In this document: positions 30,071-49,173 of the stretch, piece by piece
Layout of the letters: the number at the start of each line of letters is the position of its first letter
How positions within the stretch are numbered: position 1 is the first letter of the stretch
Assembly: GCF_019216885.1 (NCBI RefSeq)
Contig: NZ_JAAQRC020000001.1
Coordinates: forward strand, 1,736,001-1,800,000
DNA: 64,000 nucleotides
Origin: Methylobacterium sp. SyP6R
GTDB taxonomy: Bacteria; Pseudomonadota; Alphaproteobacteria; Rhizobiales; Beijerinckiaceae
Reading direction: 5' to 3'
The notes under the pieces: generated by a model
Database searches by the model: none
What the model saw: the letters and a program-made list of their open reading frames with translations, nothing else
Told to the model about the DNA's origin: nothing
Position numbers and translations under genes: made by a program

Positions 30071-30237
30071 CTCCACCGCGGATATCCTCGTGTGAGAACC
30101 CAGCGTGTAGCACGACGGTCCGGCGGTAGGGAACGAGGCCTGTGTCGAGGCAGCGGGAGAGGCGCGGTCTCGACAGGAGGCGCGCGAGTCCGGCCCGACA
30201 CGCGATCCGGTCACCCGGTCGGACATCCGGCGAGCCC

Positions 30238-30266: not shown

Positions 30267-30338
30267 TTGCCAGCCACGCCGCCCCCCTGCTACACGGGCC
30301 GCCATACGGATCGATCTAACCAATTGATTTCATTGGTG

Positions 30339-32691: not shown

Positions 32692-33996
32692 ATGCGCGTT
32701 GCGATGGTGGGAGCGGGCTATGTCGGCCTGGTCTCGGGGGCGTGCTTCGCGGATTTCGGCCATACGGTCGTGTGCGTCGACACCGCGCCGGAGAAGATTA
32801 CCGCCCTGAAGGACGGCCGCATCCCGATCTACGAGCCTGGGCTCGACGCTCTGGTGGCCGAGAACGTCCGCCAGGAGCGCCTGACCTTCACCACGAACCT
32901 CGCCGAGGCGGTGGCCGGGGCCGATGCGGTGTTCATCGCCGTCGGCACGCCGTCGCGCCGCGGCGACGGCTTTGCCGATCTCTCCTACGTCTATCAGGCG
33001 GCGCGCGACATCGCCGGGGCGGTCACCGGGCCGACCGTCGTCGTCACCAAGTCCACCGTGCCGGTCGGCACCGGCGACGAGGTCGAGCGCATCGTCCGCG
33101 AGGCCCGGCCGGACATCGCCATCGCGGTCGCCTCGAATCCGGAATTCCTGCGCGAGGGCGCGGCGATCTCCGACTTCAAGCGCCCCGACCGTATCGTCAT
33201 CGGCGCCGACGACCCGAACGCCGCGGCGGTGGTGAGCGAGCTCTACCGCCCGCTCTACCTCAACCACGCCCCGATCCTGGTGACGAGCCGGCGCACCGCC
33301 GAGCTGACCAAGTACGCGGCCAACGCCTTCCTCGCCACCAAGATCACCTTCATCAACGAGATCGCGGATCTCTGCGAGCAGGTCGGCGCCGACGTGCAGG
33401 AGGTCGCCCGCGGCATCGGGCTCGACAACCGCATCGGCCGCAAGTTCCTGCATGCCGGTCCCGGCTACGGCGGCTCGTGCTTCCCGAAGGACACGCTGGC
33501 ACTGGTCAAGACCGCGCAGGATGCAGGCAGCCCGGTGCGGCTCGTCGAGACGGTGGTGGCGGTCAACGACAGCCGCAAGCGCGCCATGGCCCGCAAGGTC
33601 GTGGCGGCTTGCGGCGGATCGGTGCGGGGAAAGCGGATCGCGGTGCTCGGCCTCACCTTCAAGCCGAACACCGACGACATGCGCGAGGCGCCGTCCCTGT
33701 CGATCATCACCGGCCTGCAGGATGCCGGCGCCAGGATCGTGGCCTACGACCCGGAGGGCGTGGAGCAGTCCCGCCCGCTGCTGGCCGAGGTCGAGTACGC
33801 CGCCGATCCTTACGCCTGCGCGGCCGGGGCGCACGCTCTCGTGATCGTGACCGAATGGGACGCGTTCCGGGCCCTCGATCTCAAGCGCTTGCACGGCGCA
33901 ATGGCCGAGCCGGTGCTGGTCGACCTGCGCAACGTCTATCGGCCCGAGGATGCCCGCCGGCACGGCTTCACCTATGCCAGCGTCGGCCGGCCCTGA
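32692..33996 (+). CDS. ugd: UDP-glucose 6-dehydrogenase
   Basis: 434 residues, full length for the family. It oxidises UDP-glucose to UDP-glucuronate with two NAD, supplying an acidic sugar for capsule or exopolysaccharide. Marks: MRVAMVGAGYVGLVSGACFA (NAD fold), FIAVGTPS, TKSTVPVGTGDEVE, NPEFLREGAAI, the catalytic Cys263 in GYGGSCFPKDT, and GLTFKPNTDDMREAPS in the C-terminal sugar-binding domain. The rhizobial homologue in the K-antigen region is called rkpK. It probably shares a transcript with the preceding glycosyltransferase. Confidence 0.95.
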   Translation: MRVAMVGAGYVGLVSGACFADFGHTVVCVDTAPEKITALKDGRIPIYEPGLDALVAENVRQERLTFTTNLAEAVAGADAVFIAVGTPSRRGDGFADLSYVYQAARDIAGAVTGPTVVVTKSTVPVGTGDEVERIVREARPDIAIAVASNPEFLREGAAISDFKRPDRIVIGADDPNAAAVVSELYRPLYLNHAPILVTSRRTAELTKYAANAFLATKITFINEIADLCEQVGADVQEVARGIGLDNRIGRKFLHAGPGYGGSCFPKDTLALVKTAQDAGSPVRLVETVVAVNDSRKRAMARKVVAACGGSVRGKRIAVLGLTFKPNTDDMREAPSLSIITGLQDAGARIVAYDPEGVEQSRPLLAEVEYAADPYACAAGAHALVIVTEWDAFRALDLKRLHGAMAEPVLVDLRNVYRPEDARRHGFTYASVGRP

Positions 33997-34818: not shown

Positions 34819-37800
34819 GTGACACAGCGTCCTGACATCGCGATCATCGGTCGGGCCTGCCGGCTTCCGGGCGCCTCCGGCGTCGACAGCCTCTGGCAGA
34901 TGCTCATCGAGGGACGGTGCGCCGTCTCGCGCATCCCGGAGGACCGGTGGTCCCTGGAGCGCATGGGCCACCCCCGGGCGCAGGAGCGCGGCAAGAGCTA
35001 CACCTGGGCTGCGGGCGTCATCGACGATCCGTGGTCGTTCGACCCGTCCGTGTTCGGCATCTCCCCTCGCGAGGCCGAGCAGATGGACCCGCAGCAGCGC
35101 CTGCTGCTGGAACTGACCTGGGAAGCCCTGGAGAGCGCGGGCCTGCGGCCGTCGGCGGTGGCCGGCAGCCCGATCGGCGTGTTCGTGGGCGCGTCCTCGC
35201 TCGATTACGGCAACCTGCGCGTGCTCGACACCGCCTCGGGCGACGCCTACGCGGCGACCGGCAACACGCTGTCGATCCTGTCGAACCGCATCTCCTACAT
35301 CTTCGACCTGAAGGGGCCGAGCTTCACCCTCGACACCGCCTGCTCGTCGTCCCTCGTCGCGCTGGACGCCGCGGTCGCGGCGATCGCCTCGGGGCGGATC
35401 GACACGGCGGTGGTGGCCGGCGTCAACCTGCTGGTCAGCCCGTTCAACTTCGTGTCGTTCTCCAACGCCTCGATGCTGTCGCGCACCGGCCTGTGCCAGG
35501 CCTTCTCGGCCAGCGCCGACGGCTACGTGCGCGCCGAAGGCGGCGTCGTCCTGGTGCTGCAATCAGCCGCCGCCGCCGCCCGCAACGGGTCGACGGTGCG
35601 CGGCGTGATCGCCGCCTCGAAGGTCAATTCGGACGGGCGCACCACCGGCATTTCCCTGCCGTCGGGCTACGCACAAGGAGCCCTGCTGGAGGAGATCTAC
35701 CGCGAGGCCGGGGTCGCCCTCGACGCGATCACCTTCATGGAGGCGCACGGCACCGGCACTCCCGTCGGCGACCCGATCGAGGCCGGCGCCATCGGCGGCA
35801 AGCTCGGCCGCGGCCGCGCGACGCCCCTGCCGATCGGCTCGATCAAGACCAATATCGGCCATACCGAGCCGGTCTCCGGCCTCGCCGGCCTGCTCAAGGC
35901 CAGCCTGGCGCTGGAGCACGACCTGCTGCCGCCCTCGCTGCACAGCGCCGAGCTCAACCCGGCGATCCCGTTCGACGAGCTGAACCTCGCGGTCAACCGT
36001 ACGCTGCTGCCCCTGCCCCGTACCGGCCAGGCGCGCTTTGCCGGCGTCAACTCGTTCGGCTTCGGCGGCACAAACGCCCACGTCATCCTGACCGACCCGG
36101 CGCCGGTCGCGGTCGCCGCGGCCTCGGCGCAGCCGGCAGCGGAAGTGCTGCTGGTCTCGGCCCAGACCAAGGCGGCGCTCGCCGACCTCGCCCAGGATTA
36201 CGCGACCCGCCTCGACGGCGCGGATGCGGCCGAGATCGCCCGCGTCGCGGCGGCGGCGGCGCATCGCCGCGAGCGCCTGCCGGTCCGCGCCGCGATCCCG
36301 CTGCGCGACCTCGATGCGGAAGCCGTGACCGAGGCCCTGCGGGCCATCGCCGAGGGTGAGGAGAGCCCTGCGGCGGTCGTCGCAACCGCGGTCGAGCGTG
36401 CCGGCGGCGTCGCCTTCGTGTATTCGGGCAACGGCAGCCAGTGGGCTGGGATGGGCCGGGATGCCTATGCCCTCAACCCGGTCTTCCGCGCCCGCTTCGA
36501 CGAGGCCGATGCGCTGTTCAAGCCGCTCGCCGGCTGGTCGCTGAAGGACGCGCTCTTCGCCGACGACCTGGAGAAGCGTCTCGCGCTGACCAGCGTGTCG
36601 CAGCCGCTGATCTTCGCGATCGAGGCCGCCTCCACCGCGGCGCTCAAGGCCGTCGGCCTGACGCCGACCGCGATCGTCGGCCACTCGGTCGGCGAGATCG
36701 GCGCGGCGGAGGCCGCCGGCATCCTGACGCTCGAACAGGCGGTGAAGGTCATCTTCTACCGCTCGAAGCACCAGGAGGCGACCCGCGGGCTCGGCACCAT
36801 GGCGGTGCTGCTCGCCCCCGTCGAGGAGGTGCAGACCTTCCTCGCCGATTACCCCGAACTGGATATCGCCGCCTATAACAGCCCGAAGGCCGTGACGGTG
36901 GCGGGTCCCGTGGCGGCGATCGACGCCGCCATGAAGGCGCTGGCGCGCAAGCGCCGCCGCGGCCGCAAGCTCGACCTCGACTACGCCTTCCACGGCCGGC
37001 TGATGGACCCGATCGAGGCGCCGCTGCGGCGCGACCTCGCCGGGCTCAAGCCCTCCGCCGGCACCGTGCCGCTCGCCTCGACGGTGACCGGCGACGTGCT
37101 CGTCGGCACCGCCTTCGACGCCGGCTACTGGTGGCGCAACATCCGCGAGCCGGTGCGGTTCAGCGCGGCGGTCCAGGCCGCGGCGCAAGCCGGTGCCCGG
37201 ATCTTCGTCGAGGTCGGCCCGCGCCCGACCCTGCTGCCGCATATCGGCGACTGCCTCGAGCCGCTCGGCCTCGACGGCGCCACCGTCGGCGTGCTGCCGA
37301 AGAAGACCCTGGAGGTCGACCCGTTCCGCCGCGCGCTGGCGGCGGCGCTCGCCGCCGGTGCCGCGATCGACGAGGCGGTCGCCTTCGGCGCCGATCCGGC
37401 GGGCAGCGTGGCGCTGCCGCACTACCCCTGGCAGCGCAAGGTCTTCCGCCTGCCTGAGACCACCGAGGCGGTGAACCCGGCGAGCGCCCGGCCCTACCAT
37501 CCGCTGATCGGCGCCCGCCAGGGGCCGGACGGGCTGGAATGGCTCGCCCATCTCGACGTCGCGACGGTGCCGGAACTCGACGACCACCGCATCGACGGCC
37601 AGGCGATCCTGCCCGGTGCGGGCTTCGCCGAGATGGCTTTGGCGGTCGGCCGCGAGATCGTGCGCTCGGAGAGCGTGACGCTGGCGGATCTCGAGATCCA
37701 GCAGCCGATGGTCTTCGCCGAGGAGGCGGTGCGCGAGGTGCTGTGCCGCTTCTCGCCCGGCGCCAACCTGGTGCAGATCCTGTCCCGGCCGCGCCTGAGC

Positions 37801-40800
37801 CAGGCGCCCTGGCAGCTCCACGCCGTCGCCAAGCTGGTCGAGGGCGAGACGCCGCTGCCGCCGCGCCTGACCGGCCGCGACATGGCCGCCCTGCCCTCCG
37901 AGACCACGGTCGACGGCGAGGCGCTCTATGCCCGCGCCAAGGCCTCCGGCCTCGGCTTCGGCCCGTCCTTCCGCCAGGTCGCCCGCTCGGCCCGGCTCGA
38001 CGATGCCACCATCGTCTCCGATCTCGTGCCCGCCGAGGCCCATGCCCGCTACGGCGTGGTGCCGGCGCGCCTGGATTCCTGCTTCCACGGCCTGATCCTG
38101 CTCTTCGCCGACCTTCTCGGCGAGGCGGCGAGCCGGGCCTACGTGCCGATCCGCTTCGGCGAGATCCGGCTCGTGCGTCCCGGCGCGGCGATCGCCCGGG
38201 CGGTGATCCGCACCCGGCGCTGCAACGAGCGCAGCATCCTGGCCGACTTCACCCTGGTGGACGAGGCCGGCGAGGTGATCGCCACACTGCGCGAGGGCCG
38301 GTTCCAGGCCCTGCGGATGAAGGGCGGCAACGACCTCGACGCCTTCGCGATCCGCCAGTTCACCGAACTCGCCACCGAGCCGACGGCGATCGCGCTGGAG
38401 CCGCAGCCGGCCGTCGCGGCCCTGGTCCGTCGCCAGGCCGGTTCGGTCACCGCCACCGGCGAGGCGGCACTCGGCGCCGGTCACATGCTGCTCGAAGGCT
38501 GGGCGACCTCGCTCGCCGACCGGCTCGCCCGCGGCCTCGCGGTCGGCAGCGTCGTCGACGTCGCGGCCTCGCGCCGGCTGCCGGCGGCGCTTCGCCCCTG
38601 GCTCGTCAACCAGCTCCTGGCGCTGGAGGTCAGCGGGCTCGCCGATGCCGCGGGCGACGGGCGCTGGCGCCTGCGCGCCGACGTGACGCTGCCCGAGCCC
38701 GACGAGATCATGCGCTGGATCGCGGCGGATCATCCGGAGCTGTCGGCGGAACTCCTGCTCTGCGCCGATCTCGGCGCCGTGGTCTCGCGGGTGCTGGCCG
38801 GCTCCCTCGCCGACGCGCCGTCCCTGCCGCAGGCGGCGCTCGACGCCTTCTCGTTGCGCGGCGCCACCGTCCGGGCCTCGGCCGACACGGTGATGCGGCT
38901 CCTTGACGACAGCGTCGCGTCGCTGCCCCGCGACCGGGCGCTCCGCCTGCTCCAGGTCGGGTTCGGCCCGCTCTCGGCCCAGGTCGCGACCTTCGCCGGC
39001 CTCAACGAGGCGCGCCTGACGGTGTTCGAGGCCGACCGGCGTCTCGCCGAGCGCGCCCGCCTCGCCCTGCCCGCCGGCGTCACGATCGTCGAGGATCCGG
39101 CGGCCCTCGGCCACGCCGCCTTCGACGCGGTACTGGCGAGCGACGTGCTCCACCGCGCCTCCCGCGACCTCCTCAGTCCCCTGGCGTCGAGCCTCGCGGC
39201 CGGCGGCCTGTTCGCGGCGGTCGAGCCCGGCGCCTCGCTGTTCCGCGACATGGTGTTCGGCCTCGATGCCGGCTGGTTCGAGTCCCACGGCGACGTGCCG
39301 GTCGGCCGCCTCGACGACGTGGCGGGCTGGCAGCGCTCCTTGAGCGCCGTCGGCCTCGTCAAGGTCGCGGCGGACCGCGCCGTCACCCGCAACGGCAACG
39401 ATCTCCTGCTGCTGGCGGAAGCCCCGCCCCGGCCGAAGGCCGCCGCCGGCCAGACTTTCGCCTTCGTCATCGGCTCCGAGGACGAGTTCGCGGCCGAGAC
39501 CGCGTCGTCGCTCGCCACGCTGCTCGTGGCGAGCGGGGTCCACGTCTCGATCATCCTCGATTCCGAGGCCTCCTTGCGCGAGCTGGAGCGCGAGACGCCC
39601 GACACGGTGGTCTATCTCGCCGGCGCCTTCAACCGCGGCGGCGAGCCGGCCGAGCGGCTGCGCGAGCGTTGCCTCGGGCTCAAGCGCTGCGTCGAGCATC
39701 TCGGCACACGTCCGACCCGGCTCTGGGTCGTCTGCCCCGGCGCCACCCGCGACCGCGGCGGGCTCGCCTGCGGCGTCGAGGCCGGCATCTGGGCCTTCAC
39801 CCGGACGCTTGCCAACGAAGTGGCCTCGCTCGACGTGCGCCGCATCGACCTGTCGACGGCGATCTCCTCGAAGCGTGCCTCGGAGCGCCTGCGCGACCTG
39901 ATCCTGTCCGGCACGCCCGAGACCGAGATCGTGGTCGACGACGACGCCACCCGCGTCGTCCGCTTCTCGCAAGGTGCGCGCCCGGCCCGGCGTTCCGGCC
40001 CGGCGGCGCCGGCCGCGCGGCTCGAACGCAGCACCACCGGCGGCCTCAACGAGATGCATTGGGGCCCGGCCGAGCGCGTCGCGCCCGGTCCCGGCCAGAT
40101 CGAGATCGCGGTCGAGGCCACCGGCCTCAACTTCCGCGACGTGCTCTGGGCCCTGTCGATGCTGCCCGAGGAAATCCTCGAGGACGGCTTTGCCGGCCCG
40201 CGGCTCGGCCTCGAATGCGCCGGCCGCGTCGCCGCGGTGGGTGCGGGCGTGACCGCCTTCAAGCCCGGCGACCGGGTGGTGGCCTTCGCCCAGTCGGGCT
40301 TCTCGACCCACATCGTGGTGCCCGAGATGGTCGTGGCGGCAGCACCCCAGGGGCTGTCCTCCGAGGCCGCCGCCACCACGCCGGTGGCCTTCCTCACCGC
40401 CTTCTACGGCCTCGTGACGCTCGCCCGCCTCAAGGCCGGCGAGTGGGTGCTGGTCCATGGCGGCGCCGGCGGCGTCGGCCTCGCGGCGCTCCAGATCGCC
40501 CGGATGCGCGGCGCCCGGGTCATCGCCACCGCGGGCTCGAACGAGAAGCGTGCGCTCGTCAAGGCGCTCGGCGCCGAGCATGTGCTCGATTCCCGCTCGC
40601 TCGCCTTCGTCGACGACATCCGCCGCATCACCGGCGACGGTGTCGACGTGGTGCTCAACAGCCTGTTCGGCGAGGCGATGGAGCGCAGCCTCAATGCGTT
40701 GAAGCCCTTCGGGCGCTTCGTCGAACTGGGCAAGCGCGACTACGTCGCCAACACCCATATCGGCCTGCGGCCATTCCGTCGGAACCTGTCCTATTTCGGC

Positions 40801-42264
40801 GTCGACCTCGACCAGCTGCTCCAGTTCCAGCCCGATGAGGGCAAGCGGCTGTTCCGCGAGGTGATGGCTCTGTTCACCGACGGCAGCCTGAAGGCGCTGC
40901 CCTATCAGCCCTTCGCCGCAGAAGAGGTCTCGGACGCGTTCCGGCTGATGCAGCAATCGGGTCACATCGGGAAGATCGTGATCGCGCCGCCGAAGGCCGG
41001 CACGATCCTGGCCGAGACGACGAAGCCCTTCGTGGTGGCGCCCGACCGCGTCCACCTCGTCACCGGGGGCTTAGGAGGCTTCGGCATCGAGGCGGCGCGC
41101 TGGCTCGCCGAGCGTGGTGCGCGCCACATCGCCCTCGTCGGCCGCAAGGCGCCGACCGGCGAACCGGCGCTCTCGACCATCGCCGAGCTCAAGGCCCGCG
41201 GCGTCGCCGTCCAGGTGGAATCCTGCGACATCACCGACCGCGCCTCGGTCCAGCGCCTGCTGGAGCGGGTGGAAGCCAAGGGCGTGAAGCTTGCCGGCAT
41301 CATCCACGGCGCGATGGTGCTGCAGGACGGCCTGATCGCGAACCTCGATCCGGCGGCGCTGGAGGCGGTGATCGCCCCCAAGGTGATCGGCGCCGGCCAT
41401 CTCGACGCGCTGACCCGCGACCGGGCGCTCGACTACTTCGTGCTGTTCTCCTCGGCCACGACCTTCATCGGCAATCCGGGCCAGGGCTCCTACGTCGCCG
41501 CCAACGGCTTCATGGAGGGTCTGGCCCGCCAGCGCCGCCGCCTCGGCCTACCGGCCCTGGCGGTGGCCTGGGGCGCCATCGGCGATGTCGGGGTGCTCGC
41601 CCGCAACAAGGCGGTGATGGAGACCCTCGCCGGCCGCGTCGGGGTGACCCCGGTCGATGCCCGCAAGTCCCTCGACCTGATGGCCGAGGCGCTGGGCGTG
41701 CAGGGCACGGCGCCCGACGACGCGGTGATCGCCATCGCGGCGATGCACTGGGGCAAGGCCCGCGAGCGCCTCGCCACCCTGCGCTCGCCCAGCTACGCCA
41801 GCCTCGGCTCGGAGCAGCAGGCGGAGGCCGGCGGCCAGGTCGCGATCAGCATCGCCGGCTTGCTCCGCGCCCACGACCTCGACGACGTCCGCAAGACCGT
41901 GGCGGATGCCATCGTGGAGGACATCGCCCGCATCCTGCGCCTGCCGAAGGACGACATCAGCCGCGTGCGCCAGCTCTCGGAGATCGGCCTCGACTCGCTG
42001 ATGGGCGTCGAGCTCGGCGCGAGTCTGCAGGAGCGCTTCGGCCTCGACGCGCCGCCCTCCGGTGTGTCGAGCGGCCAGACCGTGACCGAACTCGCCGACA
42101 CCCTGATCCAGTCGGTGGCGGCCCCGGTCGACGAGAGCGCGGCGGCGGTGGTCAGCCTGTCGCAGCGCCACGGCGGGGTCGAGTCGGCCGATGCCGAGGC
42201 GCTGCAATCCCTCCAGGCGCTGGTCGAGAAGAACAGCCAGGACATCAAGGTCATCACCCAATGA
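34819..42264 (+). CDS. rkpA: type I modular polyketide/fatty-acid synthase, RkpA-like
   Basis: 2481 residues from a GTG. Domain order by motif: KS (Cys175 in TACSSS, His310 in HGTGT, His348 in NIGHTE); AT (Ser623 in GHSVGE, His725 in YAFH); DH (His923 in HRIDGQAILP, Asp1086 in LDSCFHG); a degenerate methyltransferase-like stretch (about 1375-1480, with VGFGP in place of a SAM-binding glycine loop); ER (GGAGGVG near 1881); KR (TGGLGGFG near 2082, Tyr2225, Asn2229); ACP (Ser2393 in GLDSL). All reducing domains look intact, so it should make a saturated chain iteratively. No thioesterase is present. Size and downstream partners match RkpA of Sinorhizobium K-antigen synthesis. It overlaps the next gene (ATGA). 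Confidence 0.9.
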   Translation: MTQRPDIAIIGRACRLPGASGVDSLWQMLIEGRCAVSRIPEDRWSLERMGHPRAQERGKSYTWAAGVIDDPWSFDPSVFGISPREAEQMDPQQRLLLELTWEALESAGLRPSAVAGSPIGVFVGASSLDYGNLRVLDTASGDAYAATGNTLSILSNRISYIFDLKGPSFTLDTACSSSLVALDAAVAAIASGRIDTAVVAGVNLLVSPFNFVSFSNASMLSRTGLCQAFSASADGYVRAEGGVVLVLQSAAAAARNGSTVRGVIAASKVNSDGRTTGISLPSGYAQGALLEEIYREAGVALDAITFMEAHGTGTPVGDPIEAGAIGGKLGRGRATPLPIGSIKTNIGHTEPVSGLAGLLKASLALEHDLLPPSLHSAELNPAIPFDELNLAVNRTLLPLPRTGQARFAGVNSFGFGGTNAHVILTDPAPVAVAAASAQPAAEVLLVSAQTKAALADLAQDYATRLDGADAAEIARVAAAAAHRRERLPVRAAIPLRDLDAEAVTEALRAIAEGEESPAAVVATAVERAGGVAFVYSGNGSQWAGMGRDAYALNPVFRARFDEADALFKPLAGWSLKDALFADDLEKRLALTSVSQPLIFAIEAASTAALKAVGLTPTAIVGHSVGEIGAAEAAGILTLEQAVKVIFYRSKHQEATRGLGTMAVLLAPVEEVQTFLADYPELDIAAYNSPKAVTVAGPVAAIDAAMKALARKRRRGRKLDLDYAFHGRLMDPIEAPLRRDLAGLKPSAGTVPLASTVTGDVLVGTAFDAGYWWRNIREPVRFSAAVQAAAQAGARIFVEVGPRPTLLPHIGDCLEPLGLDGATVGVLPKKTLEVDPFRRALAAALAAGAAIDEAVAFGADPAGSVALPHYPWQRKVFRLPETTEAVNPASARPYHPLIGARQGPDGLEWLAHLDVATVPELDDHRIDGQAILPGAGFAEMALAVGREIVRSESVTLADLEIQQPMVFAEEAVREVLCRFSPGANLVQILSRPRLSQAPWQLHAVAKLVEGETPLPPRLTGRDMAALPSETTVDGEALYARAKASGLGFGPSFRQVARSARLDDATIVSDLVPAEAHARYGVVPARLDSCFHGLILLFADLLGEAASRAYVPIRFGEIRLVRPGAAIARAVIRTRRCNERSILADFTLVDEAGEVIATLREGRFQALRMKGGNDLDAFAIRQFTELATEPTAIALEPQPAVAALVRRQAGSVTATGEAALGAGHMLLEGWATSLADRLARGLAVGSVVDVAASRRLPAALRPWLVNQLLALEVSGLADAAGDGRWRLRADVTLPEPDEIMRWIAADHPELSAELLLCADLGAVVSRVLAGSLADAPSLPQAALDAFSLRGATVRASADTVMRLLDDSVASLPRDRALRLLQVGFGPLSAQVATFAGLNEARLTVFEADRRLAERARLALPAGVTIVEDPAALGHAAFDAVLASDVLHRASRDLLSPLASSLAAGGLFAAVEPGASLFRDMVFGLDAGWFESHGDVPVGRLDDVAGWQRSLSAVGLVKVAADRAVTRNGNDLLLLAEAPPRPKAAAGQTFAFVIGSEDEFAAETASSLATLLVASGVHVSIILDSEASLRELERETPDTVVYLAGAFNRGGEPAERLRERCLGLKRCVEHLGTRPTRLWVVCPGATRDRGGLACGVEAGIWAFTRTLANEVASLDVRRIDLSTAISSKRASERLRDLILSGTPETEIVVDDDATRVVRFSQGARPARRSGPAAPAARLERSTTGGLNEMHWGPAERVAPGPGQIEIAVEATGLNFRDVLWALSMLPEEILEDGFAGPRLGLECAGRVAAVGAGVTAFKPGDRVVAFAQSGFSTHIVVPEMVVAAAPQGLSSEAAATTPVAFLTAFYGLVTLARLKAGEWVLVHGGAGGVGLAALQIARMRGARVIATAGSNEKRALVKALGAEHVLDSRSLAFVDDIRRITGDGVDVVLNSLFGEAMERSLNALKPFGRFVELGKRDYVANTHIGLRPFRRNLSYFGVDLDQLLQFQPDEGKRLFREVMALFTDGSLKALPYQPFAAEEVSDAFRLMQQSGHIGKIVIAPPKAGTILAETTKPFVVAPDRVHLVTGGLGGFGIEAARWLAERGARHIALVGRKAPTGEPALSTIAELKARGVAVQVESCDITDRASVQRLLERVEAKGVKLAGIIHGAMVLQDGLIANLDPAALEAVIAPKVIGAGHLDALTRDRALDYFVLFSSATTFIGNPGQGSYVAANGFMEGLARQRRRLGLPALAVAWGAIGDVGVLARNKAVMETLAGRVGVTPVDARKSLDLMAEALGVQGTAPDDAVIAIAAMHWGKARERLATLRSPSYASLGSEQQAEAGGQVAISIAGLLRAHDLDDVRKTVADAIVEDIARILRLPKDDISRVRQLSEIGLDSLMGVELGASLQERFGLDAPPSGVSSGQTVTELADTLIQSVAAPVDESAAAVVSLSQRHGGVESADAEALQSLQALVEKNSQDIKVITQ

Positions 42265-43631
42265 GCAGCGGATCCTCCCACGGCGCGGGCGGGCGCGAGG
42301 CCCTGGCGGGCTTCGTCGCCGCCCGCCTCGGCAAGGCTCCCTCCCGCCCCGCCCCGGTCCGGCCGGCGCCCAAGCCGGCTCTGGCCCAGGCCCAGAGCTT
42401 CGACAGCCTGCCGGCCTACAAGGAGCTGAAGCTCCAGCGCTCGGCAGCCGACCTGATCGGCCTCGGCAACCCGTTCTTCCGCGTCCACGACGCCAAGGCC
42501 GGCGCGACGACGCGGATCGAGGGGCGGACCTTCACCAATTTCTCGTCCTACGACTACCTCGGTCTCAACGGCCATCCGGAGGTGAACGCGGCGGCGCAAA
42601 GCGCGCTCGCCGAGTACGGCACCTCGGCCTCGGCGAGCCGGATCGTCGCCGGCGAGCGCCCGGGCCATCTCGTCCTCGAGAAGGCGATCGCCGCGCATTA
42701 CGGCACCGAGGCCTGCGTGGTGATGGTGAGCGGGCACGCCACCAACGTGGCGACCATCGCGGCCCTGCTGGAGCCTGGCGACGTGATCTACCACGACGCC
42801 CTGATCCACAATTCGGTGGTCACCGGCGCGCAGCTGTCGGGCGCCCAGCGCCGCAGCTTCGCCCATAACGACCTCCAGGCGCTGGAATCGCTGCTGCACG
42901 CCACGCGCCACGAGCATCGCCGGGCGCTGATCGTGATCGAGGGCCTCTACAGCATGGACGGGGACGCCCCCGACCTCGCCGGATTCGTCGCCCTCAAGGA
43001 GCGCTACGGCGCCTGGCTGATGGTCGACGACGCCCACGGTCTCGGCGTGCTGGGGAAGGATGGCCACGGCCTGCACGAGCATTGCGACGTGCCTCCCGGC
43101 AGCGTCGACATCTGGATGGGCACGCTCTCGAAGACGCTGTCCTCCTGCGGCGGCTACGTCGCGGGGGCCGGCGCTCTGATCGAGCTTCTGAAGTGCACCG
43201 CCGGCGGCTTCGTCTACTCGGTCGGCCTGTCGCCGCCGCTCGCCGCTGCCGCCACCGCCTCGCTGGCGCTGATGCGACGGGAGCCCGAGCGGGTGGCGCG
43301 ACTGCGCCGCAACGGCGCGCTCTTCCTCGCCACCGCCCGCGAGCGCGGCCTCGATACCGGCACCAGCCTCGGCCTCGCCGTGGTGCCGGTGATCCTCGGC
43401 GATTCGCTGAAGGCGGTGACCCTGTCCGACCGGCTGTTCAAGCGCGGCATCAACGTGCAGCCGATCATCCATCCGGCGGTGCCGGAGCGCTCGTCGCGCC
43501 TCCGCTTCTTCATCACCTCGGAGCATAGCCCCGAGCAGATCCGCGAGACCGTGACGGTGCTGGCGGACGAGCTCGACGAGCTGAATCAGGGCGGGTCGCT
43601 GGTCGAGCGGCTGATGTCGCGGCGGGCGTGA
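42261..43631 (+). CDS. rkpG: alpha-oxoamine synthase, RkpG-like
   Basis: 456 residues, ATG overlapping the synthase stop. A PLP enzyme of the family containing AONS (BioF), serine palmitoyltransferase and KBL. It decarboxylatively joins an amino acid to an acyl thioester to make an amino-ketone. Blocks: NFSSYDYLGLNGHPEV, YGTSASASRI, the IEGLYSMDGD loop, LMVDDAHGLGVLG, and the PLP Lys291 in GTLSKTLSSCGGY. An extra 60-residue Ala/Pro-rich N-terminus is present. Since the partner synthase has no thioesterase, this enzyme is the likely chain-releasing step, taking the chain from the ACP. The homologue in rhizobia is RkpG. Confidence 0.9.
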   Translation: MSSGSSHGAGGREALAGFVAARLGKAPSRPAPVRPAPKPALAQAQSFDSLPAYKELKLQRSAADLIGLGNPFFRVHDAKAGATTRIEGRTFTNFSSYDYLGLNGHPEVNAAAQSALAEYGTSASASRIVAGERPGHLVLEKAIAAHYGTEACVVMVSGHATNVATIAALLEPGDVIYHDALIHNSVVTGAQLSGAQRRSFAHNDLQALESLLHATRHEHRRALIVIEGLYSMDGDAPDLAGFVALKERYGAWLMVDDAHGLGVLGKDGHGLHEHCDVPPGSVDIWMGTLSKTLSSCGGYVAGAGALIELLKCTAGGFVYSVGLSPPLAAAATASLALMRREPERVARLRRNGALFLATARERGLDTGTSLGLAVVPVILGDSLKAVTLSDRLFKRGINVQPIIHPAVPERSSRLRFFITSEHSPEQIRETVTVLADELDELNQGGSLVERLMSRRA

Positions 43632-43757
43632 GAGGCCGTCATGTCGCCCCGGGGATGCGTAGCAGAACCCGGGGTGATGAAGGCTGCGGTCTTCTCTCTT
43701 CCACCGGATGAAGTCATGGGCGGGACGAATGCTGGGACGTAAGTCCCGAGAAAATTC

Positions 43758-44606
43758 CTACGGCTTGAGCGACAGGCTCAAGGCCTCTCTCAAATCCCCC
43801 GCATCGACGAGTCTCCTCCCCCGCCGCTTCAAGTCGCGCAGCTGCGCCGGCGTCGGGAAGCCGCAATAGGGCAGGACCGGGACGCTCCGCCCTTCCGGCA
43901 ATGCACCCGCCCGCTCGGCCTCGGCCAGCACGCCCTCCAGCAGCGGCCGCCCGGCCTCGTGCAGCAGGATCGCCGCCCGCGAGGCGGTGACGTCCTCGGG
44001 CAAAGTCACCGGCGCCTGCGCCAGGATCCCGCCGGCATCGATCGCCGGGGCCAGCCGGTGCACCGTGACGCCGAAATCCGGCCTGTCCTCCAGCAACGCG
44101 TGCAGCGTCGGCACCGGGCCGCGGTGGCGCGGCAGCAGCGAGGGATGGACGTTGAGCCCGCCCTTCGGGGCCGCCGCCAGGGTCGCGGCGTCGAAGATCT
44201 GGTCGAAATGGAACGACAGGATCAGGTCGGCCCCGTGCTCCCGCAAGAGCCCGGTCGTCGCCGGTCCGTTCACGTCGGTGATGGTGGCGTGCGGCAGGCC
44301 GAGGCGCCGGCACAGGGTGCGCAGCGGCGTCGCCTCCGGCACGTCGCGGCTGCCCGACAGCGCCTGCGTTGCGGGAGCGAGCCCCCGGACGAGGTCGGGC
44401 AGGCCGAAATTCACCGCCAGGTAAGGCAGGAAGCCGGGCCCGGAGCGCATCAGGTGGCGCCGCACCTGGCCGGTGAGCCCGCCGGTGCTCGGTCGCTCGG
44501 GGTCGGACAGGCCGACGAAGGCGATCCGCGCGGCGTTGTCGGCGACGAAGCGGCGCACCGCCCGGGCATTGGGCAGGGCTTCGAGGGTGAACAGGGCGAT
44601 CCGCAC
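43758..44606 (-). CDS. formyltransferase-family protein
   Basis: 282 residues from a GTG at 44606. It carries the formyltransferase core used with 10-formyl-tetrahydrofolate: GADLILSFHFDQIF, then GGLNVHPSLLPRHRGPVPTL with the Asn and His of the active site, and AIDAGGILAQ with the catalytic Asp. The C-terminal domain of methionyl-tRNA formyltransferase is missing, so it is not Fmt. Sugar-nucleotide formyltransferases and GART are relatives. It is the second gene of a minus-strand pair with the SDR, 30 bp after it. A target on the capsule sugar or on the amine made by the oxoamine synthase is a guess from position. Confidence 0.8.
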   Translation of the reverse strand: MRIALFTLEALPNARAVRRFVADNAARIAFVGLSDPERPSTGGLTGQVRRHLMRSGPGFLPYLAVNFGLPDLVRGLAPATQALSGSRDVPEATPLRTLCRRLGLPHATITDVNGPATTGLLREHGADLILSFHFDQIFDAATLAAAPKGGLNVHPSLLPRHRGPVPTLHALLEDRPDFGVTVHRLAPAIDAGGILAQAPVTLPEDVTASRAAILLHEAGRPLLEGVLAEAERAGALPEGRSVPVLPYCGFPTPAQLRDLKRRGRRLVDAGDLREALSLSLKP

Positions 44607-44635
44607 CGGACTTCACGTCTCCATAACCGTCAGGG

Positions 44636-45409
44636 TCAGCGCTGCTGGCGCTCGCTCATCCGGAAGCTGAAGCCGCGCATGCCGAGGCGGCGCCAGGATT
44701 CCGGGATCAAGGCGGCGCCCCGCGCCGCCGCGGCGAGCAGGCCCGGGAAGGCGACCACCGCCTCGTCGCGGGCCAACCCCCTGGCGATGCGCGCGGCCGC
44801 CGCCTCGGCGCTCATCTCGAGCGGGCGCCAGCCCTCGTAATCGGCGCCCATGGCTGTCTTCACGTAGCCGGGGCAGACCACGTTCATCCGCACGCCCTGC
44901 GGCGCCAGCTTCTCGCGGAGCGCCAGGCCGTGGGCGAGGAGCGCCGCCTTGGTGCCGCTATAGGCGGGCGCGTCGGGCAGCGGCGCGTAGGCCGCGAGCG
45001 AGGAGATCAGGGCGATCTGGCCCTGGCCCCGCGCGGCCATGAGGGCGACCGCCGGCAGCGCCACGTTGAGGGCGCCCATCAGGTTGACGTCGAGGACCAG
45101 GAAGGCGGTCTCCTCGGTCTCCAATCCGCCCTCCGGATGGCCGCCATTGACCCCCGCATTGGCGATGACGAGATCGAGGCCGAGGCGCCCGGCCACGTCG
45201 CCGATCCAGGCCCGCACCCCCTCCCGGTCGCGCACGTCGAGGGGCCGGGTCTCGACCGCGGCGCCCTTGCGGCGGCAGAGATCGGCCACCGCCTCCAGGC
45301 GCTCCGCGCCCCGTGCGTTCAGCACCAGGGTGGTGCCGGGGGCGGCGTAATGCTGCGCCAGCGCCGCGCCGATGCCGCTCGAGGCGCCGGTGATCAGGAT
45401 GACGGGCAA
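44636..45409 (-). CDS. rkpH: short-chain dehydrogenase/reductase, RkpH-like
   Basis: 257 residues. The start is a TTG at 45409 with GGAG upstream; an in-frame TGA eight codons upstream excludes a longer protein. SDR marks: LITGASSGIGAALA, IANAGVNGG, the Ser in ISSLAAYAP, and AYSGTKAALLAH with the catalytic Tyr and Lys. Near the oxoamine synthase it is expected to reduce the keto group of the aminoketone to the amino alcohol, as 3-ketodihydrosphingosine reductase does. The C-terminus is basic with hydrophobic patches (AARGAALIPESWRRLG), suggesting membrane contact. RkpH in rhizobia is also an SDR next to RkpG. Confidence 0.85.
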   Translation of the reverse strand: MPVILITGASSGIGAALAQHYAAPGTTLVLNARGAERLEAVADLCRRKGAAVETRPLDVRDREGVRAWIGDVAGRLGLDLVIANAGVNGGHPEGGLETEETAFLVLDVNLMGALNVALPAVALMAARGQGQIALISSLAAYAPLPDAPAYSGTKAALLAHGLALREKLAPQGVRMNVVCPGYVKTAMGADYEGWRPLEMSAEAAAARIARGLARDEAVVAFPGLLAAAARGAALIPESWRRLGMRGFSFRMSERQQR

Positions 45410-45691: not shown

Positions 45692-47659
45692 ATGGATCGC
45701 GGCAAGCTGAAGCGGTTGTGGCCCCGGATGCCGTCGGAGTCGGAGGGGCCCGGTCCGCGGCGCTCGCGCCGCCTGGGCAGCGAGCCGACCTCGCGGCGGG
45801 TGCGCCTGAGCGACCGGTGGGACGAGGGCTTCCTGCGACTCGGCGACCCCCGGCCCGACCGGTCCATGAGCTACATCATCGACGGGCTCGGCATCCATTA
45901 CGATGCCACGGCACCGAGCGAGCTCGAGGTGATGCTCGAGGAGGGCGGCTGGGAATCGGACGAGCTGATGGCTCGCGCCCGGGACGGCATCGCGCGCCTG
46001 CGCGAGGCGCGGCTGAGCCTCGACAACGACCCGCGCCGCCGCGACCTGCCGGCGCGGACGGACGGGGCCCGCCGGCGGGTGGTGATCGTCGACCAGGCGG
46101 CCGGCGACCCGACGGTCGGGTTCGGCCTCGCCGGCGCCAGTGCCTTCTCGGCGATGCTGGCGGCGGCCGCCGCCGACGCGCCGGAGGCCGAGCGCCTGGT
46201 GGTGATGGATCCCGGCGCTCCCGTGGGCCGGCGCGGCCATATCGATGCGGCGGCGGCGGAAGCGGCCGGCGCGCGCCTGGTGGGCGACCCCGTCACCGCC
46301 TGGTCGGTGGCCGAGGGGTGCGACCGCGTCTACGTCGTCTCGGCCCATGCCGGCTTCGAGGCGGCGCTCGCCGGCACGCCGGTGACTTGCTTCGGCCTGC
46401 CCTTCTATGCCGGCTGGGGCTTCACCGACGACCGGCTGCACCTGCCCCGGCGCACCCGCCGGCGCCGGCCGGACGAGGTCTTCGCCGCCGCCTACCTCGT
46501 CTGCTCGCGTTATTTCGACCCCTATACCGGGGCGCCGGCCCGGTTCGAGGACGCCGTCGCGACCCTCGACCTCGTCGCATCGCGCTGGCGCGAGAATGCG
46601 GTCCCGACCCTGTGCGTCGGCTTCTCGGCCTGGAAGCGGGACTGGATCACCAGAACCCTGTCGGCGCCGGGCCATCGCCCGGTCGTCCGCCGCGGCGACG
46701 CCCCCGTGACGCCGGCCGAGCTGTCGGAGGTCCGGCGCGTCGTGACCTGGGCCAGCCGGATGCCGGCCGGCCTTGAGACCGCCTGCCGTACCGCGGACGT
46801 GCCGCTCCTGCGGATGGAGGACGGCTTCCTGCGCTCGATCGGCCTCGGAGTCGCCCTGCGGCCGGGCGCCTCGCACGTCCTCGATGCCACCGGCGTCTAC
46901 TACGACGCCACGGGGCCGAGCGACCTCGAGCGCCTGCTCGAGACAGGGACGTTCTCGGATGATCTCCTCGCGCGAGCGGCCGCTTTGCGCGAGGCGGTGG
47001 TCGCCGCGCGGGTGAGCAAGTACAATGTCGGCAGCGCCGCGATGCCGAAGATGCCGCGGCCGGGCCCGGTGGTGCTGGTCGCCGGCCAGGTCGAGAACGA
47101 TGCCTCGATCCGCCTCGGCGGTGCGACCGTCTCGGGCAATGCCGCGCTCCTGCGGCTGGCCCGCGAGCGCAACCCCGATGCGGTGATCGCCTTCAAGCCG
47201 CATCCCGACGTCGAGGCGGGCCTTCGTCCCGGCTGGGTGCCGCCGGACGAGCTCGCCGCCCATGCCGACGTGGTCCTGCGCGACGTCTCGGCGATCGACG
47301 CCATCGAGGCGGCGGACCGGGTCGAGGTCGTGACCTCGCTCATCGGCTTCGAGGCACTGCTGCGCGGCAAGGCCGTGACGACCCACGGCCTGCCCTTCTA
47401 TGCCGGTTGGGGCCTGACCGACGATCCGGGCTGTCCCCGCCGTACCCGCCGCCTGACGCTCGACGAGCTGGTGGCCGCCGCGCTGATCCTCTATCCGCGC
47501 TACGTCGATCCGCGCACCGGTCTGCCCTGCCCGCCCGAGGTGCTGGTGCAGCGCCTCGCCGAGGGCGACCCGGAGCTGGCGCGCCGCGCCCTGACCCCGG
47601 AGGCCGTCCTCAAGCAGGTCTGGTCGGTGGTCTGGCGCCGCGTGCTGCGGCGGGGGTAA
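45692..47659 (+). CDS. kpsC: KpsC-like capsule beta-Kdo transferase
   Basis: 655 residues with two homologous halves, as in KpsC, which adds the first beta-Kdo residues to the lipid acceptor of group 2 capsules. Each half contains the GLPFYAGWGxTDD motif (near residues 238 and 569) and a GIHYDAT or GVYYDATGPSDLERLLE stretch. The second half is complete (GFSAWKRDWITRTL, MEDGFLRSIGLG, KPHPDVEAG). The first half begins abruptly: only WDEGFLRLGD precedes SYIIDGLGIHYDAT, so its N-lobe is missing compared with family members. The frame upstream has no homology. The start ATG at 45692 has GAGAGGCG before it. Confidence 0.85.
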   Translation: MDRGKLKRLWPRMPSESEGPGPRRSRRLGSEPTSRRVRLSDRWDEGFLRLGDPRPDRSMSYIIDGLGIHYDATAPSELEVMLEEGGWESDELMARARDGIARLREARLSLDNDPRRRDLPARTDGARRRVVIVDQAAGDPTVGFGLAGASAFSAMLAAAAADAPEAERLVVMDPGAPVGRRGHIDAAAAEAAGARLVGDPVTAWSVAEGCDRVYVVSAHAGFEAALAGTPVTCFGLPFYAGWGFTDDRLHLPRRTRRRRPDEVFAAAYLVCSRYFDPYTGAPARFEDAVATLDLVASRWRENAVPTLCVGFSAWKRDWITRTLSAPGHRPVVRRGDAPVTPAELSEVRRVVTWASRMPAGLETACRTADVPLLRMEDGFLRSIGLGVALRPGASHVLDATGVYYDATGPSDLERLLETGTFSDDLLARAAALREAVVAARVSKYNVGSAAMPKMPRPGPVVLVAGQVENDASIRLGGATVSGNAALLRLARERNPDAVIAFKPHPDVEAGLRPGWVPPDELAAHADVVLRDVSAIDAIEAADRVEVVTSLIGFEALLRGKAVTTHGLPFYAGWGLTDDPGCPRRTRRLTLDELVAAALILYPRYVDPRTGLPCPPEVLVQRLAEGDPELARRALTPEAVLKQVWSVVWRRVLRRG

Positions 47660-47784: not shown

Positions 47785-49173
47785 TCAGGCGTTCTGCAGT
47801 GCCTCGATGCCCGGCATCTCGTCGCCGGCATCATTGGCGCTGCGGGCCCGGGAGCGGACCTCGAGCCAGGCGCCCTGCGTGAGGTCGAGGCGCGAAGCCG
47901 TCGCCTCCACCGCCGCCGCCATGCCCTCGCCCTTGTAGTAGACGCCGCGGATCTGGATGTTGGCGACGATCGCCTTGATGAAGGCGTCCCAGAGGTCGCG
48001 CCGGGGCGGCTCGGCCTTCGTCCAGAACGTCTCCAGCGCGCCCTGATAGGTCAGTCCCTGGATGTCGTAGATCGCGGCACCCAGCGTCATGGTCGGCTTG
48101 TTGGCGCGCATCGACCACAGGCCGACGGTGCTGTTGACCGTGACGACGCCGCGGCAGCCGTCCAGCATCTTGCCGAGGTCGCCGCCATCGGCGAAGTCGA
48201 CTCGGTCGGTGACGCCCCACTTCTCCGCCGAGCGCCGCACGATGCGCGCCCAGTTGCGGATGCCCGGATCGAGGGGGTGGATCTTCACGAGCAGGCGCGA
48301 CCCGGCCGGTGCGTGCTCGGCGAAGGATCGGATCACCGCGTGGATCGGCGTCTTCAGGTCGAAGAACGGCGAGTAGGCGCGCAGCTGGAAGTCGTTCTCC
48401 ATCTGCAGCGGCAGCACGTAATAGGTCGTGCCGGCCTCGCGCAGGCGGCGCACCAAGGCGTCGACCCGCGGACCGGTGCGCTTGGCGCGCACCATGTGCA
48501 GGGCGGTGCCGAGATAGATCAGGGCGTTGTGATGCACCTGATGCGACTTGTAGCCGGGATAGAGCCACCAGAGCCAGTTGCTCATCAGGTGGTAGGCCAT
48601 GTCCCACACCGCCTGGAGCCAGAAGCTGTCGCGGTAGCGCGGCACCAGGTCGGGCTCGGGCGCCTGGGCGGCCAGCGCCAGCACGGCCTCCGGATCCTTC
48701 GGGAAGCAGCTGTCGCCCGACATGCCGTCGCGCTCCAGCGTGATCCAGTCCGGACGCAAGTAGCCGAAATCCGTCACCGTGACGTTCAGGCCGCGGGCCT
48801 TGGCGGCGGCGACCGCGACCTTGTGGTAGTAGCGCTGCTCGCCGAGCAGCATCAGGTCGGTCACGCCCTCGCGGTCGATCAGATCGGCGATGAAGGCCGG
48901 CCAGGTCTCGCGGGTGCCGCGGAAATTGACGCCGTTGGCCCGGCGCCAGAACATCCAGTCGCCAAAGCAGAGATTCACCCGCAGGCAGCGGTGACCCCGC
49001 GCCTCCAGCGCATCGGCGACCCGGGCGAAGAACGGCGTGATCGGGCCCTGGAGGAACAGGAAGACCTGACGCCCGCCAGTGCGGGCTTCCTGGCGGGCGT
49101 CCTGATGGCGCGTGTCTCCGTGATGGGTGTCTCGGCGGCTCGGTTCGACGTTTCGCGCGGGATCAGCTCTCAC
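47785..49173 (-). CDS. kpsS: KpsS-like capsule polysaccharide protein
   Basis: About 462 residues from a GTG at 49173 with GAGG upstream. It belongs to the capsule Kdo-transferase/export family KpsS: FLFLQGPITPFFARVADALE (typical N-terminal FLQGP motif), INLCFGDWMFWRR-like NLCFGDWMFW, MLLGEQRYYHKVA, TDFGYLRPDWITLERDGMS, LLVKIHPLDPGIRNW and VVTVNSTVGLWSM. KpsS and KpsC together build the poly-Kdo linker on phosphatidylglycerol in E. coli. It is convergent with kpsC and divergent from the export lipoprotein gene. The rhizobial counterpart (RkpZ) influences K-antigen chain length. Confidence 0.87.
   Translation of the reverse strand: MRADPARNVEPSRRDTHHGDTRHQDARQEARTGGRQVFLFLQGPITPFFARVADALEARGHRCLRVNLCFGDWMFWRRANGVNFRGTRETWPAFIADLIDREGVTDLMLLGEQRYYHKVAVAAAKARGLNVTVTDFGYLRPDWITLERDGMSGDSCFPKDPEAVLALAAQAPEPDLVPRYRDSFWLQAVWDMAYHLMSNWLWWLYPGYKSHQVHHNALIYLGTALHMVRAKRTGPRVDALVRRLREAGTTYYVLPLQMENDFQLRAYSPFFDLKTPIHAVIRSFAEHAPAGSRLLVKIHPLDPGIRNWARIVRRSAEKWGVTDRVDFADGGDLGKMLDGCRGVVTVNSTVGLWSMRANKPTMTLGAAIYDIQGLTYQGALETFWTKAEPPRRDLWDAFIKAIVANIQIRGVYYKGEGMAAAVEATASRLDLTQGAWLEVRSRARSANDAGDEMPGIEALQNA

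Follow-up and report, generated by a model that had tools for sequence, protein, structure and literature searches.

The window, a stretch of 64,000 nucleotides from Methylobacterium sp. SyP6R (contig NZ_JAAQRC020000001.1, positions 1,736,001 to 1,800,000), carries a large reducing synthase (PKS), an alpha-oxoamine synthase (AOS), a short-chain dehydrogenase/reductase (SDR) and a formyltransferase at 34819-45409, flanked by ugd on one side and by kpsC, kpsS and kpsD on the other (Table 1). The PKS and AOS reading frames share 4 bp, and the codirectional SDR and formyltransferase genes are separated by a 29-bp gap. Open reading frames and Pfam profiles bear out the layout given by the first-pass annotation, namely a synthase, an overlapping oxoamine synthase and an opposite-strand SDR and formyltransferase with capsule genes as neighbours. 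The capsule-type genes KpsC, KpsS and KpsD are all present in the locus, as judged from Pfam and from relatives, and none of the ABC exporter components KpsM, KpsT and KpsE was recognised there; two KpsE-like places lie elsewhere in the same genome, at only 27-31% identity. The apparent truncation of KpsC was dismissed as a sign of damage, since the same compact N-terminus is found in relatives.

Table 1. Genes of the capsule locus, in window coordinates.
Feature	Position	Strand	Basis
Two-domain GT2 glycosyltransferase, possibly in the capsule set	30267..32606	+	Pfam
UDP-glucose 6-dehydrogenase (ugd)	32692..33996	+	Pfam
Type I PKS/FAS, KS-AT-DH-(degenerate MT)-ER-KR-ACP, 2481 aa, SgaA/RkpA/WcbR kind	34819..42264	+	ORF, Pfam, motifs
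Alpha-oxoamine synthase (AOS), PLP type, 456 aa, SgaB/RkpG kind	42261..43631	+	ORF, Pfam, AOS tree
Formyltransferase, 282 aa	43758..44606	-	ORF, Formyl_trans_N
Short-chain dehydrogenase/reductase (SDR), 257 aa, RkpH/SgaC role	44636..45409	-	ORF, adh_short
KpsC-like protein, two Capsule_synth stretches	about 45692..47659	+	Pfam; start chosen from relatives
KpsS-like protein, AOS-linked side of KpsS tree	47785..49395	-	Pfam, KpsS tree
Wza/KpsD outer-membrane polysaccharide export protein	49702..51057	+	Poly_export, SLBB

The synthase, its partner and related systems

Pfam profiles in the PKS include ketoacyl-synt (295 bits), Acyl_transf_1 (220), KR (209) and PP-binding (41), together with PKS_DH_N/PS-DH and ADH_N/ADH_zinc_N, and motifs are found for KS (DTACSS, EAHGTG, KTNIGH), AT (GHSVGE, YAFH), DH (HRIDGQAILP), ER (GGAGGVG), KR (GGLGGFG) and ACP (GLDSL). 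No thioesterase family is among the 15 Pfam families listed. These results agree with the earlier description of a fully reducing KS-AT-DH-ER-KR-ACP synthase without thioesterase and add to it a stretch that resembles a methyltransferase and lies between the DH and ER domains. In the window PKS this stretch lacks a simple SAM-motif pattern, as it does in 130 of the 131 PKS scanned, and the idea of a chain branched by the methyltransferase domain was dropped on that ground. Of 156 AOS loci, some genomes being counted twice (e.g. L070/L106, L086/L110, L027/L133 and L117/L179), 135 have a codirectional PKS immediately 5' of the AOS, while in the other 21 the PKS is apart, inverted or outside the stretch; the arrangement is therefore not chance.

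The AOS (Aminotran_1_2, 160 bits; the SDR matches adh_short at 140) falls inside a single group of 37 AOS labelled PKS-linked, separate from 12 SPT-like and 2 BioF-like AOS, with an SH-aLRT of 84 that is moderate and comes from a quick tree. The AOS of a Pseudomonas plasmid (L012) belongs to the same group, two members of which (L130, L131) show no PKS in their stretch; L120 is unplaced, and SgaB itself was left out of the tree. In Pseudomonas, SgaB is a serine palmitoyltransferase that uses L-Ser almost exclusively and yields 3-ketosphinganines, and deletion of sgaA or sgaB leads to loss of C24/26/28 sphinganines (Peters et al., 2025, PMC12134224). The accessible text of that paper attributes to SgaA/SgaB the C24-C28 sphinganines and probable phosphoglycerol-sphingolipids, the latter being species 154 Da heavier that were assigned by mass, and proposes a reductase role for the SDR SgaC (PMC12134224). 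As such, the capsule cluster of Methylobacterium has enzymes of the kind recently shown to make sphingolipids. The first-pass annotation had proposed that an amino acid condenses with the chain to release it and that the SDR then reduces the product; because release has been demonstrated for the homologous AOS and reduction has been proposed for the homologous SDR (Peters et al., 2025), this chemistry appears, by analogy, well founded for the window enzymes. Its remark that the chemical product is undefined has been overtaken, as sphinganines have been shown for the homologous Pseudomonas system (Peters et al., 2025, PMC12134224).

The SgaA-SgaB-SgaC system of P. fluorescens MYb115, compared here through its description and the Pseudomonas plasmid relative L012 rather than the MYb115 sequence, has like the window a monomodular reducing PKS followed by an AOS, with an SDR in the cluster. 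The domain order without thioesterase and the AOS directly 3' place the window with SgaAB-type systems, whereas its SDR and formyltransferase lie on the opposite strand. In the accessible text of the sga paper neither a capsule gene nor an enzyme for the head group nor a formyltransferase is named, capsules, rkp and LTA synthase go unmentioned, and attachment to polysaccharide is not discussed (PMC12134224), while the window locus has both capsule genes and a formyltransferase. According to the available text, the AOS and SDR locus tags are five apart in MYb115, as they are in L012, and this spacing points to a capsule-type locus of the same kind in MYb115.

Similarly, the rkp-1 region of the Sinorhizobium K-antigen, whose gene names and order we take to be rkpA/G/H/I/J, unites PKS, AOS, SDR and KpsS in one locus with KpsD near, as does the window. 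The earlier match to rkpA, rkpG and rkpH stands as regards the AOS, which shares 51% identity with L009, the copy on pSymB of S. meliloti, and the PKS-AOS-SDR order in S. meliloti; it does not extend to the orientation of the SDR, which in the window is on the other strand, and the window locus differs further in having KpsC and a formyltransferase, a gene recognised in none of the rhizobial loci examined. KpsC, KpsS and KpsD are common to the window and the E. coli group 2 capsule, for which we know of no PKS or AOS. Group 2 capsules are, in the accessible literature, taken to sit on phosphatidylglycerol, and it is already known from a review that rkp-1 makes a lipid carrier, its structure unstated in the accessible text, for secretion of the rhizobial K-antigen (PMC4881576). 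The wcb and rkp genes are akin (PMC3908369), and, as with the wcbR/wcbT-type genes of Burkholderia capsule loci, PKS and AOS lie in or near capsule genes in the Burkholderiales relatives L010, L016 and L098 and in L111; unlike the window, all four have an LpxC-like gene separating PKS from AOS, and three of them a GNAT gene after the AOS.

KpsS and a phosphoglycerol transferase follow the AOS

PF05159 (KpsC/KpsS) genes are found in 19 of the 20 genomes with this AOS type and in 67 of the 377 without it, that is, with no AOS match at 1e-75 (Fisher 7e-13, uncorrected for kinship); G012 is the single AOS genome without them. Of at least 587 places in one match list of the survey, the best 80 were kept; among 53 weaker AOS matches, 20 were looked at (L223-L242). 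Scores are high by construction because the search models were built from the same loci. The AOS-negative comparison covers 40 loci out of the 67 such genomes, with a KpsS row from 38. In the KpsS tree, which keeps 84 of 117 rows after removal of near-copies at 80%, one branch (support 98/90) places all 48 rows from AOS genomes and 3 others on one side and the remaining 33 outside. This branch thus parts the window KpsS from 33 of the 36 AOS-negative rows, in a tree that includes no named E. coli KpsS, and the three AOS-negative rows on its side are those with an LTA-synthase-like transferase within the stretch. Rows from AOS genomes of other classes (Pseudomonas L012, Paraburkholderia L016, G362, G831, G254, G341 and G050) group with the alphaproteobacterial AOS rows rather than with AOS-negative rows from outside that class, and the split persists when KpsS and AOS are on different contigs (G095, G346).

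This transferase, a gene of many rhizobial loci that is missing from the window and hence was invisible to the first-pass annotation, is an LTA-synthase-like phosphoglycerol transferase and probably RkpI. Its profile (11 sequences) matches phosphoglycerol transferase GacH at 5e-32, LTA primase at 1e-21 and LTA synthase at 8e-12, and T266, E228, D431 and H432 are invariant in the family. It is present in 42 of 156 AOS loci, and in 24 rhizobial loci it is the membrane gene between SDR and KpsS that the window locus lacks. Near KpsS, KpsC or PKS-AOS it occurs in 10 of 20 AOS genomes versus 4 of 40 AOS-negative loci (Fisher 0.001), with up to two stretches per AOS genome and one per AOS-negative genome. 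The ten AOS genomes in which it was not seen include Stappiaceae-type loci, and also G117, which lies outside the survey, and G217 and G270, represented by the AOS locus only. Neither the window locus nor the stretches of its clade (L023-L027, L029, L103/L173, L132-L134) contain it; the only candidate in the same genome, a weak match (C1:5348000, 41.5 bits), was not accepted, having by eye no TxRTE stretch. Four AOS-negative genomes (G249, G263, G273 and G344) combine this KpsS type with the transferase, and a canonical SPT as their explanation was dropped, as the best AOS of G249 and G273 adjoins bioA/bioB-like genes (by eye).

The association of the AOS type with KpsC/KpsS genes and the KpsS split that follows AOS status are new, as are the transferase in many PKS-AOS/KpsS loci but not the window clade and a formyltransferase group tied to AOS genomes. 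A literature search that mostly covered sources other than subscription papers and preprints turned up no paper that links a PKS-AOS sphingolipid of this kind with capsules.

A sphinganine as candidate capsule acceptor or anchor

In the model that we favour, the PKS would work iteratively, its ACP carrying an acyl chain that is saturated and unbranched; the overlapping AOS would condense this chain with an amino acid, most probably L-serine, with decarboxylation, and so free it as a 3-keto long-chain base; and the SDR would reduce this to a (very) long-chain sphinganine. In many relatives a phosphoglycerol head would probably be added by the LTA-synthase-family transferase, and the single-chain lipid would serve, instead of (lyso)phosphatidylglycerol, as the acceptor or anchor for the Kdo-linked capsule, which a matched pair of KpsS and KpsC makes. 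In the window's clade, where the transferase is missing, the base amine may be modified by the formyltransferase whose gene follows that of the SDR. Comparison with other bacteria suggests that the capsule is assembled on this lipid or held by it, a role already proposed in the first-pass annotation and now supported, short of proof, by the AOS-KpsC/KpsS co-occurrence and the KpsS tree. On balance we lean towards a PKS-made sphinganine that serves a group-2-like capsule as its acceptor or its anchor. The fuller proposal is on the doubtful side: a KpsS/KpsC capsule class of rhizobia, Methylobacterium and pseudomonads that sits on a PKS-made phosphoglycerol-sphinganine, a lyso-PG mimic formed by the RkpI/LTA-synthase-like transferase, with a co-evolved KpsS and, in Methylobacterium, an N-formylated base. 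Counted against the model are the missing transferase in the window clade and in 10 of 20 AOS genomes, the AOS genome without KpsC/KpsS, AOS-negative genomes with the transferase, PKS-AOS loci without a recognised Kps gene, the extractability of the P. fluorescens lipids, and a requirement of rkp-1 for secretion, as a study title has it, which need not mean an acceptor. A further point against it is that LTA synthases work outside the cytoplasmic membrane and KpsS inside, so that a phosphoglycerol lipid would need flipping.

Other products and other roles for the lipid have also been weighed. Were the window AOS to take alanine or glycine, a 1-deoxy base without primary hydroxyl would result, which would explain why the transferase is not seen in the clade, and amino acid choice does vary among AOS enzymes; this is very improbable in view of the strong serine preference described for the Pseudomonas AOS and of the sister AOS of M. 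bullatum, 78% identical, whose locus has the transferase. The outward topology expected of the transferase would suit a periplasmic lipid, one that receives its phosphoglycerol there and takes over or escorts the exported capsule while KpsS starts on ordinary PG, and rkp-1 is reportedly required for secretion of the Kdo polymer. The lipid carrier for secretion described in the review (PMC4881576) points the same way, but the tree that follows the AOS is that of KpsS, a cytoplasmic enzyme, which makes this course of events quite unlikely. A sphingolipid free in the membrane, or a secondary metabolite, aiding capsule export or retention through the envelope and unjoined to the polysaccharide, would fit the extractable sphinganines and phosphoglycerol sphingolipids of P. 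fluorescens (PMC12134224), the stretches around PKS-AOS in which the models recognise no Kps gene (L028, L031, L035, L037, L039) and the hopanoid-type genes beside the pair in L037, L039 and L048. We consider it unlikely, as both the co-occurrence in 19 of 20 genomes and the KpsS split exceed what a general envelope role would predict.

The lipid under the capsule is an old open question in rhizobia. A PKS-derived sphingolipid carrier would join the product of rkpA/G/H/I (and wcbR/T), the phosphoglycerol source in Pseudomonas and the distinct KpsS, and sphingolipids reported as secondary metabolites could then be capsule precursors.

The formyltransferase

The formyltransferase matches Formyl_trans_N at 61 bits, its closest similarity to enzymes of solved structure spans about residues 87-240, and its first 67 residues are covered by none of the 60 solved sequences listed. 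A basic, amphipathic helical insert lies at 44-81. N152, H154 and D190, which we take to be the formyltransferase triad, are invariant in the alignment, and the protein thus has both the Formyl_trans_N fold and the N-H-D catalytic residues of ArnA, Fmt and WbkC, the similarity to these being mainly over the catalytic domain. The window form and those of another class are 24-26% identical over their full length and have end features in common; two independent recruitments were set aside on this evidence, common descent being as likely.

N-formylation of the long-chain-base amine in Methylobacterium is plausible from the sequence comparisons, and formylation of an amino sugar of the capsule, unrelated to the lipid, is a serious contender that we lean slightly against. 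Its nearest folds and sequences, ArnA, Fmt and the sugar enzyme WbkC, speak for a sugar substrate, sugar formyltransferases are frequent in capsule loci, and 13 of 20 AOS genomes have no high-scoring member of this divergent group. However, members above 350 bits occur only in AOS genomes (7 of 397 genomes, the profile containing these very sequences), and PKS, AOS and formyltransferase are consecutive and codirectional, with stop-to-stop frames that touch or overlap, in three genomes of another class, G362 and G831 (one genus) and G832. The basic amphipathic insert likewise argues for the lipid, as do the GNAT genes that elsewhere occupy the slot after the AOS. These GNAT proteins have a tandem GNAT fold; their naming as the bacterial ceramide synthase (Caulobacter CC_1154) was dropped, and among solved sequences a profile search matched just one, an unrelated protein. 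If N-formylation of the base is borne out, it would count as a new type of modification among sphingolipids.

The PKS-AOS locus and its probable lipid product

The polyketide synthase (PKS), alpha-oxoamine synthase (AOS), formyltransferase and SDR described in the first-pass annotation are real genes, and the capsule genes said to flank them (ugd, KpsC, KpsS and KpsD/Wza) were also found. The window locus is the Methylobacterium version of a known kind, represented by the rhizobial K-antigen (rkp), Burkholderia capsule (wcb) and Pseudomonas fluorescens MYb115 (sga) genes. The new elements are the link drawn between the sphingolipid result and the capsule system, the LTA-synthase-like transferase, the split among KpsS proteins and the formyltransferase association.

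Features of the window locus and two neighbouring regions
Feature	Position	Strand	Remark
PKS	34819-42264
AOS	42261-43631
Formyltransferase	43758-44606	-
SDR	44636-45409	-
KpsC	about 45692-47659		capsule gene flanking PKS-AOS
WcbI-like protein (PF18588)	29114-30277	-	local G+C dip (61%); two tRNA-Val genes near
dxs, HpnA-like epimerase, squalene/phytoene synthase	54709-59698		after the capsule genes

The KS, AT, DH, ER, KR and ACP motifs of the PKS are all intact, and its AT carries GHSVGE and YAFH, which we take to be malonyl-type; no thioesterase was found in the protein, and a methyltransferase-like stretch between DH and ER lacks the SAM motif. The genome measures 7.5 Mb, and its AOS shares 95-97% identity with its counterparts in Methylobacterium tarhaniae, platani, frigidaeris, nonmethylotrophicum and variabile. 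In the MYb115 study, the iterative PKS SgaA and the AOS SgaB, arranged as in the window, yield sphinganines of C24, C26 and C28. Purified SgaB acts as a serine palmitoyltransferase that takes L-serine almost exclusively, ketone reduction is ascribed, as a proposal, to the SDR SgaC, and lipids heavier by 154 Da were interpreted from their mass as phosphoglycerol sphingolipids (PMC12134224). The terms 'capsul', 'rkp' and 'LTA synthase' do not occur in its text.

When 52 AOS were placed in a quick tree, the window protein fell within a group of 37 labelled PKS-linked (SH-aLRT 84), which also takes in rhizobia, Burkholderiales and a Pseudomonas plasmid, and which stands apart from 12 SPT-like AOS without PKS (99) and two BioF-like AOS; for two of the 37 (L130, L131) the fetched stretch shows no PKS, and a further PKS-linked row, L120, is placed on its own. 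Given the MYb115 chemistry and this placement, the product with the best support for the window pair is a long-chain base, and the window genes very probably make a sphinganine-type lipid. The window AOS would presumably use serine. As the nearest solved relatives of the SDR by sequence are general SDRs, its presumed substrate is read from gene position.

WcbI is a Burkholderia capsule gene, and a WcbI-like gene lies upstream of the window PKS. In three other loci (L037, L039, L048) PKS-AOS adjoins genes clustering with squalene-hopene cyclase, an amine-oxidase-like protein and an epimerase, identities taken from the annotation of the L048 representatives. Together with the dxs, HpnA-like and squalene/phytoene synthase genes of the window, these suggest that the pair may once have neighboured hopanoid genes.

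Association with the capsule system

Among 397 sampled genomes of the same phylum, an AOS of the window type (>430 bits) was called in 20, with weaker matches in seven more. KpsC/KpsS (PF05159) was found in 86 genomes, comprising 19 of the 20 with AOS and 67 of the 377 others, one of the seven with weak matches among the latter (Fisher 7e-13, uncorrected for kinship). The sole AOS genome without it (G012) has KpsE/M/T-like genes at an AOS locus (L112). Since most KpsC/KpsS genomes are without this AOS, the PKS-AOS system is a variant added onto the capsule pathway.

In total, 117 KpsS sequences were collected, from AOS genomes (sampled mostly via AOS loci) and from 40 AOS-negative loci, which represent 40 of 67 AOS-negative genomes with KpsC/KpsS and of which 38 yielded a row. 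Dropping near-copies left 84 rows, 48 from AOS genomes and 36 AOS-negative. In the resulting unrooted tree, which has three long AOS-negative branches and no named reference KpsS, one supported branch (98/90) has all 48 AOS-genome rows on one side together with only three AOS-negatives (G249, G273, G263). These three are the tree's negatives with an LTA-synthase-like gene near KpsS; a fourth such locus (G344) was removed as a near-copy. AOS-genome KpsS of other classes (Pseudomonas, Paraburkholderia, G362, G831, G254, G341, G050) group with alphaproteobacterial AOS rows, apart from AOS-negative KpsS of other classes. The split is kept where KpsS and AOS lie on different contigs (G346 and the 7-contig assembly G095), so linkage alone does not explain the pattern. 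On balance, we favour the sphinganine-type lipid as acceptor or anchor of the capsule.

Four AOS-negative alphaproteobacterial loci (L194, L195, L196, L212) carry the LTA-synthase-like gene near KpsS, which is of AOS type in the three in the tree. Stappiaceae-type loci (L049, L053, L056, L057, L068, L075, L086, L090) have two tandem KpsS beside PKS-AOS, on different sub-branches wherever the tree includes both; an LTA-synthase-like gene was not seen in their fetched stretches. Near PKS-AOS in L053, L055, L086, L115, L116 and L118 are genes of clusters with CysD-, CysN/C- or CysQ-like representatives (PAPS supply), which suggests sulfated capsules or lipids.

A candidate head-group transferase

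An LTA-synthase-family protein is encoded in 42 of 156 AOS loci. Twenty-four loci from Rhizobiaceae or 'Rhizobiales' records have its gene between SDR and KpsS, by gene order presumably the place of RkpI; it was not seen in rhizobial loci L062, L079 and L097, and Shinella (L011) carries it upstream instead. A profile of 11 members matched the solved phosphoglycerol transferases GacH (5e-32), LTA primase (1e-21) and LTA synthase (8e-12), and the invariant T266, E228, D431 and H432 are read as nucleophile and metal ligands. Of 20 AOS genomes, 10 have the gene near KpsS, KpsC or PKS-AOS (G117 not fetched; G217 and G270 viewed at the AOS locus only); of 40 AOS-negative loci, four have it near KpsS (Fisher 0.001, with wider coverage for AOS genomes). 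Its product is a natural candidate for the enzyme that adds phosphoglycerol to the Pseudomonas lipids, and phosphoglycerol-sphinganine would be similar to lyso-PG. However, LTA synthases act outside the membrane and KpsS inside, which speaks against a simple scheme. The fetched stretches of the window clade lack the gene, and five loci of other Methylobacterium (L014, L104, L140, L141, L174) have it.

The formyltransferase and other genes after the AOS

The window formyltransferase lies 29 bp downstream of the SDR on the same strand and has the ArnA/Fmt/WbkC fold (AlphaFold pLDDT 84.9; Foldseek E about 1e-12). Against solved enzymes, its best sequence matches span about residues 87-240, and the first 67 residues are reached by none of the 60 solved matches listed; residues 44-81 form a basic, amphipathic helical insert under the usual cut-off for a membrane span. 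In three genomes, G362, G831 (both of one genus) and G832, a related formyltransferase (24-26% identity) comes after PKS and AOS on the same strand, and the stop-to-stop frames of the genes touch or overlap. A profile built with the top-scoring sequences included, and scored on the best few candidates per genome, exceeded 350 bits in only seven of the 397 genomes, each of which has AOS: six Methylobacterium and G362. The score after these was 131 bits.

Elsewhere the gene after the AOS can encode a GNAT, either of a tandem-GNAT-fold kind (18 of 156 loci) or of a second kind (L016, L098 and L111, three of 156). The tandem-GNAT kind is present, too, in L121 and in all 20 SPT-like loci L223-L242, though not in L122. 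The next recognised gene is an SDR in 35 AOS loci, and none was recognised in 89. The pattern of a GNAT or formyltransferase following an enzyme that makes an amine thus recurs, and it is a reasonable, if tentative, guess that the window long-chain base is N-formylated; the rival reading is that the enzyme acts on a capsule amino sugar rather than on the long-chain base.

In the window's own GTDB family, Beijerinckiaceae, loci L223-L242 pair an SPT-like AOS, without a recognised PKS, with a tandem-GNAT protein of 380-410 aa, directly adjoining in 18 of 20; this is possibly an unreported sphingolipid or ceramide-type cluster. In L010, L016, L098 and L111, PKS and AOS are separated by a gene for an LpxC-like deacetylase. 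On Planktothrix plasmid p3 (L013 9584-17182) the AOS match lies at the C-terminus of a PKS protein, with a fatty acyl-AMP ligase and glycosyltransferases nearby.
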